DNA of 33,494 bases from a virus, in IMG/VR virus record IMGVR_UViG_3300046810_000265, positions 1 through 33,494 of that record. One strand, 5' to 3'. Below are positions 27,915 to 33,444 of this stretch, in pieces (the first letter of the stretch is position 1; every line of letters begins with the position of its first letter). Under the pieces are notes generated by a model. That model was not told where the DNA came from, searched no databases, and saw only the letters and a program-made list of their open reading frames with translations. The position numbers and the translations under genes were made by a program.

Positions 27915-28166
27915 TTACGCCTGCCGTAATTGGCTTGCCGTGAACACCGGGCGCTGCTCACAGCGCACCTCAAACAATCCCAAGTCATGGCCGTCTACGT
28001 CCTGCATATGCACGACGGTGACGAACGTTGGTGTGTCTTCCGGGTGATCCCTCCAGTGCGCGGCAGCGGCCAGCTCGGCTAGATCCTCTGCCGTGCGTTG
28101 ATCGACATAGCTGGACGGCAATGGCAGCTCGCCGGGGAGCGCGTTGGCGACATAGCGAATAATCAC
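27915..28166 (-). CDS. Early-region protein of unknown function, 83 residues
   Basis: The start is GTG 28166, overlapping the stop of the upstream gene by four bases (GTGA), with GGAGG in front. The product (starting MIIRYVANALPGELPLPSSY) has an Ala/Glu-rich helix (AEDLAELAAAAHWRD) followed by beta strands (TFVTVVHMQDVDGHDLGLFEV). No family recognised. Confidence 0.65.
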   Translation of the reverse strand: MIIRYVANALPGELPLPSSYVDQRTAEDLAELAAAAHWRDHPEDTPTFVTVVHMQDVDGHDLGLFEVRCEQRPVFTASQLRQA

Positions 28167-28471
28167 TGCGCCCCTCCTTGAACCTGTTGCACCAGGTGAA
28201 CCACGAAGTAGGAAGGAATGCCCGTGTAAATTCCCAGCCTCTCTAACTCCCTCGCAGCTCTGATTTGGAACGGGGTGCACTCGTCGGCCAAGAACTGTTT
28301 GGCGCCGGACGCAGCCGCCCGAGTGATCTGATCAACGAAGAATGGGGATGTGCACTGCGCGCCAATGACGATAGGCGCGTCGATCCCCTGCGCTTTCAGT
28401 TCGGCTTGAATGGCCAGCAGCCGCGTGGTTTTGCCTGTGGCTGGGCCGCCAGTGATGACTTGTACTTGCAT
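28163..28471 (-). CDS. Miniature P-loop NTPase-like protein, 102 residues
   Basis: Starts at ATG 28471 with AAGGAG about ten bases upstream. Residues 8-16 are GGPATGKTT, a clear Walker A motif; LADE at 61-64 could be the Walker B. The length is far below a full AAA+ or RecA core. It contains IVIGAQCTSPFFVDQITRAAASGAK and ends in VVHLVQQVQGG. Likely a nucleotide-binding early protein; substrate unknown. Its translation start shares 19 identical bases with that of the gene at 27852. Confidence 0.75.
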   Translation of the reverse strand: MQVQVITGGPATGKTTRLLAIQAELKAQGIDAPIVIGAQCTSPFFVDQITRAAASGAKQFLADECTPFQIRAARELERLGIYTGIPSYFVVHLVQQVQGGAQ

Positions 28472-28539
28472 GGTGTTGCTCCTTTTTTCGCTGGTTGAAT
28501 CAGGCTCCGCGCCTGAAGAAATGTCGGGTGTGCCCCGGC

Positions 28540-28970
28540 GTACCCCGGAACATCCGGAACAATTAAAAGTGAATGGCCGCTGGCCCACGGTTTACGGGAC
28601 TTTCAGCGTGTTCAGCACTTGGATGAATGAGGCGGAACATTCCAGAACAGCTTTTCTGCAATCTCGCCTGTAGGCCGTGTACTACGTGGGTTTGCGTGGT
28701 GTTCCAGGAATTGGTGGTGGCGGAACACTTATGGAACAGCGAATGAAAAGTTGTTCCGGTGCGTTCCAGCGTGTTCCGGTCTGAGGTAACAGAGGGGTGG
28801 CTGTTAGCTATCTGTTTTTTATAGATATTTTTCTTATAGATATTAATGTTCCAGATGTTCCCCTTGTTCATTGGCAACCCACGCATTTGCCAGAAAACAC
28901 TGTTGCCCCCCCACACACGTAGTTTTATCCCCAGGACGTTCATCAAGATTTGCTCCCCTTCCGGAACAGC
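28540..28970. repeat. Iteron-like cluster with AT-rich tract, candidate replication origin
   Basis: GGAAC or its complement GTTCC occurs twelve times: 28547, 28556, 28634, 28701, 28722, 28733, 28753, 28763, 28773, 28848, 28857 and 28963. Eleven of the twelve extend to GGAACA, most preceded by C-C or C-T (consensus CYGGAACA). Less than one pair-strand match is expected by chance. A 40-bp AT-rich tract at about 28811-28848 (with two tatagatatt-like copies) lies between the subgroups and could be the unwinding element. It directly follows the primase-helicase gene. Confidence 0.7.
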
Positions 28971-31597
28971 CAGCAGTTAAGCGAGCGCTTCTCGATGACC
29001 GACCGGACTTTGCGGGTTTCTATGAAGGTGTGTGAGGAACTGAGTGGGAGCGCTCGGTGCAGTTGAGTCGCGTGAATGACTTCCTGACCTGCCAGGCGGC
29101 AAGCGTTGTGGAAGTGTTCGATGTTGATGGCGATAAGGTCTTTATCAGCGCTGTGGTTGAGCGTTTCCTGAATCACTTCGCGCTCGCCAAGTGCATCGCT
29201 GATCGAAACCACGCGCTCGTTAAGGTAGTGATAGATCTGCCAGAAGCGACCGGCTGTTGGGTTCTCAGTGCTGACACGCTGCTGACGGTCAATGGCGCGC
29301 CGTTCGATATGTTTGATGACCTGTTCCAAGGTGTCGTCGCTCCAGTCCGGAAACAGCGGCTGTGTGGCTTTTGCAGCAGCCATCAACTGGGCGTGGCACA
29401 GAACAATTCGTTGATGCTGAAGCACTGGGTTCGCTTGCAAACGTTGTTCGTATTCGGGGAAAGCGTCGAAGTAGCGCTGTAGCCAGGCAGATTCCTGTCC
29501 AATGCAGTGGCCGAGGTAGCCAGCAAGTTGCTCGACGGCAATGCCGTTCAGGCGCGTGGCCAAGACTTTCAACGCAGGGGTGTGATGCGCTCTATTCGCA
29601 TGGAAATGTGTGATGCGCGTCAGGATCGCTTCCGAGCCTTCAACGCTGGCGTTCTGTGCAATACACAATGCTGCGAGGAAAATCAGGCTGTCGGTGTCAT
29701 TGCTTGAAGACTTGACCCCTACCGTTCGAAGCGTGGCGTTGTGGTCAAACAAGGGTTTCCACTTTTCCCAGTTGTATTGACTGATTACCGTGCGGCCCTG
29801 GGCGTCCACGGCTTGGCTGTCCGACTCGATCAAAACCACCGGAAGGTTGCTTACCTGAGAAAGTGCGCGGGTCAGGCCGATCGCACTGGCGCCGTCGCTA
29901 TTTGGCTTGATGCCCTCATAGTTGGAGCGGCCGAGTAAACGCCAAAGGAAACGCAGCAAACTGGACTTGCCGGCGCCGGCGTCACCGGTCAGTTCCAAGA
30001 AAGGCCATGACTCCTGTTTGGTGCGGATTTGTTGCACGAAAAGCGTGGCAGTCCACCATGAAAGCGCCGCCAGCCCGTTCAGGTGATGCACTGAAAAGAA
30101 ATCAGAAAACCAGCTCGGGTCGAATCCAGAACCGCGGACTATCGAGAGGCTGTTGAGCGAGGTTTTCAGACCGATTTTCCCGACCTCAAGATAGCCGTGG
30201 CTGTTCGCCAAGTATTCGCGCCCTTTGTGATAGCCGAACTTCTGAAAGCAGTAGGTCTTGCTCGATGCGTCGTAGCCGACGAAGGGCAGCGATCGGACGG
30301 TTAGCGCGTTGTCGAGCCACTTGCTGCGCAACATGGCCAACACCTTTTCCCCGCCTTCGAAGTTGCCGCCTGGTGTGCGTTCCAGCAGTGACTTGGCAAA
30401 GCTGCGCGGATCGCCGATGGAGTTTGGCGCCAACGGTTCTTTGCAGTTCTGTGCCGAGTTGGGGAAGTTGAATTGGAAGAAAAACTGCTGGTCGCCACTG
30501 AGGGCATCGCGCTGGATGTATTCGAAGTGCGGTACGCAGTTGGCCACCTGCTTGAGGTCGCAATGCTTTTCGAACATCGGCCAATGGCCGTTGACCGTGT
30601 CGCCGTCCAGATCCTTATTTAACTCGTCGGTGTTGATCTTGGCCGAGTACAGGCGGTTCTGAAAATCGACGAGGAAGAAGCTGCGCGGTCGTTTCAGGTA
30701 GAGCAGAAAAGCCTTTTTCGTTGCGCTGACCGCCACGAACAAGCGCCCCTGGTAACACGCCTCCAGCATGAAGTCGTCATTCAGTTGGCCATCTCGGTAC
30801 ACGTCGTCCCAGTCGCGATCGGCGCCGGCGAGTGCCACCCATGCCTTTTCATCTTTGGCGTGCAGCTGGCTACGGTATTTCGGAATGACAGAGTGGCCGG
30901 CCGCGTCGTCGTCCAGTGCGATGATCCAGCGCACGTTGTTGCCCTTATTCGCCTCGACGATGTCCCAAGGAAAGTTGTTCGCCGAGATTGATGCAATGGC
31001 CTTGTAGCCGGCGAGGAACAAGGCGATTGCGTGAAAGATGCCCTCCACGATGTAAACGCTGTCGCCTGGCTCGATGGTCATGCCAGGCGGCACCCATGCG
31101 CCGCCCTTGTAGGACATCTTCCATTTGATACCGGCTTTATCACCGCCGTTGGCTGTGACCATGGTCGAATCAATGATGCGTTCCCAGTACCCGTCGCAGA
31201 GCGGGAACCGAACCGTGTCAGCCCATTGACCGTCCGCCACTTTGCGTCGGGCCTGCTCGTACCAGCCTTTCATCTTGCTGATGTCGAAACCGCGATTACG
31301 CTGTAGGTAGGCATCGGCCGTGGCATTCGGATTCAGCTCGGTACGGGGAAAGCGCTCGCTGAGGTTTTCGAACAGGTGGCTGTAGCGTTCCCGTGTTTTT
31401 TCCTCGAACTGGCACTGGTTCAGGCGATTGCATTTGAGCTGATACGGCTGCTTGCGAGCGATGTACAACGTGCGCTCGCCGCACCCTGGGCATACACCTT
31501 TTTGAAAGTACGTCGTGCCGATGTCTTTGAAGTCCAGGTCATGGTCATGCTCCAGGGCTTCGACTACTTCCAGGCGGTAGATGTCTTCGAATTGCAT
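28943..31597 (-). CDS. Bifunctional primase-helicase replication protein
   Basis: An 884-residue protein from ATG 31597 (AGGGG about nine bases upstream). Residues 36-62 are a zinc-binding part (CPGC...CNRLNQC); residues about 181-235 are Toprim-like (VYIVEG with E185, then IALDDDAAGH with D229-D231); residues 538-545 are GDAGAGKS (Walker A) and 587-593 VVLIESD (Walker B). This is the layout of phage primase-helicases such as P4 alpha-like or DnaG/helicase fusions. It should make primers and unwind DNA at the phage origin. Main gene of the early operon and the only replication initiator candidate seen. Confidence 0.9.
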   Translation of the reverse strand: MQFEDIYRLEVVEALEHDHDLDFKDIGTTYFQKGVCPGCGERTLYIARKQPYQLKCNRLNQCQFEEKTRERYSHLFENLSERFPRTELNPNATADAYLQRNRGFDISKMKGWYEQARRKVADGQWADTVRFPLCDGYWERIIDSTMVTANGGDKAGIKWKMSYKGGAWVPPGMTIEPGDSVYIVEGIFHAIALFLAGYKAIASISANNFPWDIVEANKGNNVRWIIALDDDAAGHSVIPKYRSQLHAKDEKAWVALAGADRDWDDVYRDGQLNDDFMLEACYQGRLFVAVSATKKAFLLYLKRPRSFFLVDFQNRLYSAKINTDELNKDLDGDTVNGHWPMFEKHCDLKQVANCVPHFEYIQRDALSGDQQFFFQFNFPNSAQNCKEPLAPNSIGDPRSFAKSLLERTPGGNFEGGEKVLAMLRSKWLDNALTVRSLPFVGYDASSKTYCFQKFGYHKGREYLANSHGYLEVGKIGLKTSLNSLSIVRGSGFDPSWFSDFFSVHHLNGLAALSWWTATLFVQQIRTKQESWPFLELTGDAGAGKSSLLRFLWRLLGRSNYEGIKPNSDGASAIGLTRALSQVSNLPVVLIESDSQAVDAQGRTVISQYNWEKWKPLFDHNATLRTVGVKSSSNDTDSLIFLAALCIAQNASVEGSEAILTRITHFHANRAHHTPALKVLATRLNGIAVEQLAGYLGHCIGQESAWLQRYFDAFPEYEQRLQANPVLQHQRIVLCHAQLMAAAKATQPLFPDWSDDTLEQVIKHIERRAIDRQQRVSTENPTAGRFWQIYHYLNERVVSISDALGEREVIQETLNHSADKDLIAINIEHFHNACRLAGQEVIHATQLHRALPLSSSHTFIETRKVRSVIEKRSLNCWLFRKGSKS

Positions 31598-31607
31598 TGC
31601 CAGCCCC

Positions 31608-31829
31608 TCAGCGCTTGGCCGAGGCGGACATGACGCGCTCTGCCTGCTGAGCGGCTTCGATGGCCAGGGCGAGCATGTTGATCAGCACCGCTTCCTTGGA
31701 ACCTTCGCTCTTTTCACGGATGAGAATTCGGCCGCGCTCGATGTCGTTCCGGATGGCTCGTTCCGACTGGCCGGAGCGCCGTGCCAGCTCTCTTACAGTG
31801 GTGTAAGGCGTGTCGATCGTGATCTGCAT
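31608..31829 (-). CDS. Small helix-turn-helix protein, Cox/excisionase or early regulator
   Basis: A 73-residue protein from ATG 31829 (GGAG nine bases upstream). Residues about 10-33 (TTVRELARRSGQSERAIRND) form a MerR/excisionase-like helix-turn-helix with IERGRIL following; the C-terminal half is an Ala-rich helix. It is the first gene of the leftward early operon, directly opposite to the repressor, which is the place of P2 cox or 186 apl. It probably represses the lysogenic promoter and directs excision. Confidence 0.75.
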   Translation of the reverse strand: MQITIDTPYTTVRELARRSGQSERAIRNDIERGRILIREKSEGSKEAVLINMLALAIEAAQQAERVMSASAKR

Positions 31830-32181: not shown

Positions 32182-33246
32182 ATGCCGATAAAGAAACTGG
32201 CTGACGGTCGCTACGAAGTGGACTGCCGTCCGGACGGCAGCTACGGCTATCGAACCCGCAGGATTTTCCCTACCAAAAACGAAGCGACCCATTATCACAG
32301 TAAGGTCATGGGGGAGGCTGCATCAGGGCGCGTTGCGAAACCCGCAAAGCACGACGCCAGAAGCATGCTCGATCTCGTCAACCGCTGGTACGTCGTCCAC
32401 GGCCAAAACCTCAAAACTGGCGAACAGCGCTTGGCGTTGTTGATCAGCATGGTCAATCGGATGGGGAACCCGAAGGCGCACAAGTTCACGTCTGCTCACT
32501 TTGCGCAGTACCGTGCAGAGCGTGCCGAGGGTAAACATTCCAGAAGTACGCCGGGCGCTGGTTATGCCAAGGGTGACGCAGATCCGAAACCCATCAGCGC
32601 AAACATGCTCAATCATGAGCTGGCGTATCTGCGCGCTGTGTTCAACGAGCTGGCCAGACTGGGCGAGTGGGACGTGGACAACCCACTCGGCAAGGTTCGT
32701 AAATTGAAGTTCGACGAAACCGAGATGGTGTATCTGCTGACCGAGCACATCCAAGAGCTACTTGGCGATCTGGCCAAGCGCGATTCGGATGCAGGTTTGA
32801 TCGCTGAAGTGTGCTTGGCAACCGGTGCCAGGTGGGGCGAAGCGGAGAAGCTGCAGCCGCGCCAGGTGCGCAATCAGATGGTGCATTACAGCCGGACGAA
32901 GTCCAGTAAGAACCGCTCGGTGCCAATCTCGAAACGCCTCGAGGATCGATTGAAGGCCGCGCTGCCGTTCAGACCTTGCTACATCACCTTTCGGCGTAGT
33001 GTCGCGGCGATCGGATTGGAACTGCCTGATGGACAGATGACGCACGTCCTGCGGCACACCTTCGCCTCTCATTACATGATGAACGGCGGGGACATCCTGA
33101 CGCTTCAGAAAGTGCTGGGGCACGCAACGCTGGCCATGACTCAGAAGTATGCGCACTTCAGTCCTGGACACATGGCGGAGGTTGTCACTTTGAATCCGTT
33201 GGCTGGCATCTTGGAAGCGAAACCAGTGGTCGCCGAGGTGGCGTGA
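32182..33246 (+). CDS. int: Tyrosine integrase
   Basis: A 354-residue tyrosine recombinase. Catalytic residues are visible in order: R217 (ATGARWGE), Lys 240 or 243 ([10 protein letters not shown]), H288-x-x-R291 (HVLRHTF), H314 (VLGHATL) and nucleophile Y323 (QKYAHFSP). The N-terminal ~60 residues ([24 protein letters not shown]) resemble an arm-binding domain. It inserts the phage into the tRNA gene located 122 bp downstream. Standard position between repressor and attachment site. Confidence 0.95.
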
Positions 33247-33367: not shown

Positions 33368-33412
33368 TGGTGGGCCCACACGGACTTGAACCGTGGACCA
33401 AAGGATTATGAG
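33368..33412. repeat. Right attachment repeat (attR core)
   Basis: Identical over 45 bp to 1170-1214. It spans the tRNA from the encoded CCA to the anticodon loop; beyond 33412 it continues as the intact tRNA. It marks the right prophage boundary. Confidence 0.93.
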
Positions 33413-33444
33413 TCCTCTGCTCTAACCAACTGAGCTATAGGCCC
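33368..33444 (-). tRNA. tRNA with CAU anticodon, probably tRNA-Ile2 (may be annotated tRNA-Met)
   Basis: The minus strand folds into a full cloverleaf of 77 bases: acceptor GGGCCTA with TGGGCCC, D arm GCTC AGTTGGTTAGA GC, anticodon arm GAGGA-CTCATAA-TCCTT, T arm CACGG-TTCAAGT-CCGTG and encoded CCA. The anticodon is CAU. The acceptor pairs C4-G69 and C5-G68 are determinants known for TilS-modified isoleucine tRNA in E. coli, whereas E. coli elongator tRNA-Met has other bases, so Ile2 is favoured. It is the phage integration site and remains intact. Confidence 0.92.

Follow-up and report, generated by a model that had tools for sequence, protein, structure and literature searches.

SaPI Rep binds iterons that lie directly downstream of its own gene by means of its C-terminal domain (PMC7581432). 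In Vibrio PLE, the DNA-binding domain of the RepA_N initiator and the iterons of the origin co-vary and are swapped as a module (PMC8263062). In satellite P4, GGTGAACAG-type iterons are organized into separate ori and crr clusters, with crr just 3' of the gene for alpha, a protein that has a zinc plus TOPRIM primase and an SF3/D5 helicase with a Pox_D5 C-terminus. The locus compared to these systems here is found in the window, by which we mean the whole 33,494-nt stretch of viral DNA that was analyzed (IMG/VR record IMGVR_UViG_3300046810_000265). As in SaPIbov1 Rep/ori and SCCmec Cch, short iterons are located directly downstream of the gene for a putative initiator-helicase and, as with P4 crr, the array is 3' of the primase gene. 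By contrast to P4, the window has one GGAACA cluster only and, by contrast to the satellite lifestyle of the SaPIs, the element is a phage that encodes terminase, portal, capsid and tail proteins of its own, from the same kind of virion gene families as those of P2. The features of the locus are as follows.

28163 to 28473, minus strand: gene for a small P-loop-like protein downstream of the array; ribosome-binding site and ATG at 28473 conserved
28547 to 28968, no strand assigned: iteron array, 11 copies of GGAACA and 2 degenerate ones in both direct and inverted orientation, spaced 9-11 bp within groups; relatives with same skeleton
28547 to 28561, plus strand: outer iteron pair (CGGAACATCCGGAACA), 9 bp period; exact in 24/26 and 22/26 aligned loci
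28634 to 28649, plus strand: two iterons with a 10 bp period, of which the window has the second in degenerate form (AGAACA); 26/26 and 21/26 loci
28700 to 28705, minus strand: single inverted iteron, 22 bp to the next group, as in P4 ori; 21/26 loci
28722 to 28738, plus strand: iteron pair, 11 bp period; 25/26 and 23/26 loci
28752 to 28777, minus strand: three iterons with a 10 bp period, the middle one being GGAACG in the window; from the locus alignment
about 28808 to 28848, no strand assigned: AT-rich tract that includes two copies of tatagatatt, a candidate unwinding element; from sequence and placement in relatives
28847 to 28861, minus strand: iteron pair, 9 bp period, adjoining the AT-rich tract; 23/26 and 26/26 loci
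28963 to 28968, plus strand: iteron inside the last primase codons, in some relatives only; 16/26 loci
28943 to 31597, minus strand: TOPRIM primase-helicase, 884 aa, phrog_1139, proposed origin-binding initiator; AlphaFold2 model and fold match
28961 to 29137, minus strand: C-terminal winged-helix-like domain (codons 821-879), proposed iteron reader; AlphaFold2 and switch-test columns
29003 to 29005, minus strand: codon 865 (Arg), for the residue at the predicted wing tip; agrees with the iteron allele in every case
31608 to 31829, minus strand: Cox-like excisionase/repressor gene directly upstream of the primase gene; rejected as iteron reader

A tRNA gene at 33371-33444, just beyond the integrase gene (32182-33246), is a likely attachment site.

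Iteron array 3' of the primase-helicase gene

Because the primase gene is on the minus strand (28943-31597), the array is located past its 3' end, with the first iteron within the last codons. The first-pass annotation had described 12 GGAAC/GTTCC pentamers within 28540-28970, 11 of them GGAACA and in both orientations, together with an AT-rich tract bearing two tatagatatt-like copies, and had placed the cluster directly after the primase-helicase gene with a chance expectation below one. Recounting gave the same numbers, with six GGAACA copies on the plus strand (starting at 28547, 28556, 28634, 28722, 28733 and 28963) and five on the minus strand (28700, 28752, 28772, 28847 and 28856), and the AT-rich tract and the position directly 3' of the gene were found as described. 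Outside of the array, GGAACA occurred at background level only (20 copies in 33 kb of the window, or 0.6 per kb), and from this density 0.26 copies would be expected in 28540-28970 compared to the 11 detected (Poisson P ~7e-15 for that stretch alone). No second cluster of GGAACA was found in the 33,494-nt window, and the excess of the motif over dinucleotide shuffles for the window as a whole (31 observed vs 17.05 ± 4.19) is due to the cluster at 28540-28970. Two further sites carry a degenerate form of the iteron in the window (AGAACA at 28644-28649 and GGAACG at 28762-28767), and relatives have GGAACA at both positions.

The same array was detected 3' of the primase gene in 29 of 30 loci with relatives (primases 77-96% identical to that of the window, or about 57% for the phi3 group), with order, orientation and 9-11 bp periods maintained. 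When 26 distinct loci were aligned, iteron columns were 97% identical vs 71% for spacer columns. Of the outcomes that the first-pass annotation had named as refuting an origin role, the two that sequence comparison can reveal (equal motif density elsewhere, and loss of the motif in relatives with the same primase-helicase) were not observed. The array is thus kept with the same primase-helicase, and an enrichment by chance or composition without function, for which the shortness of the motif is the only argument, is refuted by this conservation; with a Poisson P of about 1e-14 in addition, we regard it as vanishingly improbable. The AT-rich tract of relatives was always located just after the first iteron pair, with a median AT content of 82% in the best 40 bp, and was lower (65-72% AT) in the GGAAGG loci and some of the GGAATG loci described below.

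Arrays were also searched for apart from this group of primases. Among 300 Pseudomonas genomes examined by a 16-mer pair search, no solo array was found; arrays occurred only beside the primase gene, and the one extra two-copy match is explicable by chance. In viral contigs, 59 GGAACA clusters without primase were detected, of which 54 were single-strand and coding-like and 5 were on both strands, with at least one of these five belonging to an unrelated phage. Within the flanks read, no comparable array was found beside distant phrog_1139 primases (about 30% identical). A conserved DnaA site was not found, a perfect DnaA box being present in 2 of 88 loci and one with a single mismatch allowed in 10 of 88. 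GC skew was uninformative as an origin marker, as it follows gene direction.

Several individual loci are of note. On one Pseudomonas contig (L015:5001-7674), the primase gene is not open in one frame, due to a frameshift or sequencing error, and the array is intact (12 copies). A contig of 1492 bp (L336:19-180) carries six GGAACA at 0, 55, 65, 80, 145 and 154, which is the phi3-type skeleton, and is probably a fragment of a member of the same primase/array group. A further contig, from an unrelated phage encoding a Prim-Pol primase along with a D5-type helicase (L267:7344-8939), has 12 GGAACA as direct and inverted pairs of 9 bp period directly 3' of the helicase gene and beside AT-rich DNA (L267:7040-7335); the use of the same iteron word with a different initiator is possibly convergence. 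Two viral contigs (L252:6898-7340 and L322:951-1390) have GGAACA on both strands with spacings that are mirror images of each other, and no phrog_1139-type primase in the contig stretch examined. Pseudomonas phage UFJF_PfPro, the primase of which is 30% identical, has ten TGTCAG/CTGACA in 450 bp (L005:11068-11520) about 3.4 kb past the primase gene and beyond the integrase gene, a candidate origin of another type.

Predicted domains of the primase-helicase and likeness to known initiators

The AlphaFold2 model of the primase-helicase had a pLDDT of 88.2 for the whole protein and 89.6 for the C-terminal 112 residues. The predicted C-terminal elements (strand 821-824, helices 826-836 and 843-852, and strands 857-865 and 872-879) have the topology of a winged helix, and the domain is therefore termed winged-helix-like; in the model, the first wing strand terminates at residue 865, residue 870 falls within the wing loop, and the second helix begins at residue 843. 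No significant match was found when the isolated C-terminal model was compared to the PDB by Foldseek, and a PDB sequence profile search with the primase returned nothing significant. The best PDB matches of the whole model were SCCmec Cch (5dgk) and SaPIbov1 Rep (8tch), at E values of 2e-12 to 4e-11 and TM (target) of 0.53-0.57, with DnaG catalytic cores matched more weakly. Based on these fold matches, the protein looks like a TOPRIM primase combined with a self-loading initiator helicase and a DNA-reading tail. Its full-length fold is shared with SaPIbov1 Rep and Cch, which are self-loading initiator helicases of the DUF927 type; the DUF927 profile did not match the window protein, so the likeness is by fold alone. 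The primases also differ, those of SaPIs being of the AEP type and that of the window being a TOPRIM primase fused at the N-terminus of the helicase.

Analogy to P4, as proposed in the first-pass annotation, held in part. P4 serves well as a functional analogue, and a relationship was found between the N-terminal zinc/TOPRIM primase and that of P4 alpha, which matches phrog_1139 at E 8e-23 over residues 31-344, with Toprim_3 in both proteins. The P4 iteron GGTGAACAG and the GGAACA of the window have GAACA in common, and the spacing of P4 ori (11, 22, 43 and 10 bp) resembles that of the window (11, 22, 56 and 10 bp). By contrast, SaPIbov1 Rep and SCCmec Cch are the closest matches of the full model, and neither the crr nor the SF3 helicase of P4 was found; D5_N, DUF5906 and Pox_D5 match P4 alpha and not the window protein. 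We place the replicon in neither the SaPI nor the P4 family and suggest, by analogy, that it works like them. The Phage_GPA domain of P2 gpA was detected in neither the window nor 18 related records, some of them possibly fragments. This fits a replicon other than the rolling circle of P2, with the caveat that virus records may be fragmentary.

Iteron spelling and residue 865

The lone exception among the 30 loci was phage PaBSM-2607-JFK, which is without the GGAACA array and was instead found to have a TGGAAGG array on the same skeleton. This exception led to the finding of four iteron spellings among relatives, GGAACA, GGAAGG, GGAATG and GGTATG, on a common skeleton. Each class has its own motif almost exclusively (GGAACA loci average 11.5 copies of GGAACA vs 0.1 of GGAAGG), with allele assignments weaker for six GGAATG loci of 3-4 copies each. 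The array of PaBSM-2607-JFK (L038:7181-7501) is annotated inside a 106-aa ORF, which may be spurious or may be a gene that the array overlaps. After the first iteron pair, ATGAATACAG is conserved in the GGAAGG and GGAATG classes.

When 880 columns of 88 distinct primases were compared to the iteron allele, residue 865 was the only column to match without exception: Arg with GGAACA (64), His with GGAAGG (11), Tyr with GGAATG (12) and Trp with GGTATG (1). The second-best column was K870, which belongs to the same wing loop at a distance of five residues, and the third scored 0.53. For a switch test, a tree (of a quick type) was built from residues 1-780 only, that is, without the C-terminus. Five allele switches were found on this tree, and residue 865 alone of the 880 columns changes on all five branches and nowhere else; the five switches represent three independent pairs only, too few for a significant sign test. 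The runners-up were 872, 843, 881 and 882, such that the top five columns all fall in residues 843-882. His and Tyr at 865 each arise in two separate places on the tree.

A nearly minimal comparison was provided by L117 and L118 (the same contigs as L043 and L045), a pair close to a natural experiment. Their primases differ at eight of the last 46 residues and at only two positions ahead of these (apart from start-codon choice), and 7 of 9 iterons differ at the same base, changing GGAATG to GGTATG. Between L044 and L045, an increase in DNA divergence begins about 140 bp ahead of the stop codon and extends across the array. Since the array adjoins the C-terminal codons, both can be transferred in a single recombination event; this linkage accounts for the pairing of C-terminal codons with the array but not for the single matching column. 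The joint switching of iteron spelling and residue 865 points to the primase-helicase as the iteron reader and supports its C-terminal domain as the putative iteron-binding part. As part of our best explanation overall, in which we have good confidence, residue 865 at the predicted wing tip would be a main determinant of the spelling read. The stronger claim of a nearly one-residue code, in which 865 largely decides the iteron read (Arg GGAACA, His GGAAGG, Tyr GGAATG, Trp GGTATG), is put forward tentatively, its chances being somewhat short of even.

The Cox-like protein was also considered as the reader, because L044 and L045 differ in it too. Cox of P2 binds repeated short sites and the cox-like gene adjoins the primase gene, so the array might be operators for this or another phage DNA-binding protein, e.g., a repressor. 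The identity of the Cox-like protein does not, however, track iteron spelling in either direction: copies 87-97% identical occur with different iterons (L113/L118, L110/L117 and L165/L135), and copies 60-71% identical occur with the same iteron (L116/L155 and L117/L121). The Cox-like protein was rejected as the source of iteron specificity and, with the array 2.6 kb off, past the primase gene and away from the Cox/repressor promoter region, operators of any such protein are a highly improbable explanation. L116 and L155 share the same primase and iteron allele with Cox-like proteins 71% identical, which reveals that exchange of the immunity region is not coupled to the replicon.

Concerted switching would likewise keep base pairs intact if the inverted iterons paired in the early transcript as a terminator or processing site, and the fold energy is modestly better than that of shuffles (z -2.0). 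Against such an RNA element are the tandem direct pairs, the unequal orientations, the fixed 9-11 bp spacing and the lack of an Rfam match. An RNA helix would also leave the match of residue 865 unexplained, and we consider this explanation very unlikely.

The array as a candidate replication origin

We conclude that the array is, with good probability, the replication origin of a P2-like Pseudomonas phage and that the adjoining primase-helicase is its initiator. The best reading is a self-contained initiator-iteron replicon in P2-like Pseudomonas phages that would work like those of SaPIbov1 or P4 with its domains combined in another way. As we infer it, the C-terminal winged-helix-like domain of the primase-helicase would bind the GGAACA iterons, many of which are about one helical turn apart, and the array would serve to assemble helicase rings. 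Melting of the AT-rich tract next to the outer iteron pair would follow, allowing the helicase to load and unwind, after which the fused TOPRIM primase would make the first primers and host polymerase would copy the DNA.

Plasmid iterons and P4 crr serve in control as well as initiation, and the array could bind the primase C-terminal domain and yet be an autoregulatory or incompatibility (copy-control) site, with the origin elsewhere. The position of the array within the early transcription unit and past the primase gene, like that of P4 crr, would suit such a role. A separate origin is at odds with the single motif cluster of the window and with the AT-rich tract fixed beside the iterons in relatives, and in SaPIs a locus of this anatomy acts as an origin (PMC7581432). 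We regard a copy-control site of this type as unlikely, and retain the array as the probable origin.

Two aspects appear to be new, namely the way the domains are combined in P2-like Pseudomonas phages and the series of four alleles matched by one residue; a search of open-licence papers found no description of either. PLE differs in having two module types, iterons of about 30 bp and an initiator of the RepA_N family, compared to the four single-spelling alleles on one skeleton observed here. This work proposes where and how replication starts in a group of P2-like Pseudomonas phages without detectable gpA, and puts forward a candidate initiator, its sites and a key residue. It also provides a natural series for an old question, that of how the specificity of a protein and that of a dozen dispersed DNA sites can shift in step. 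If the one-residue code is true, these phages would, time and again, change one residue and the roughly dozen sites of an entire origin in concert, giving rise to mutually incompatible replicons, and this re-spelling may be driven by satellites, superinfecting relatives or origin-directed nucleases.
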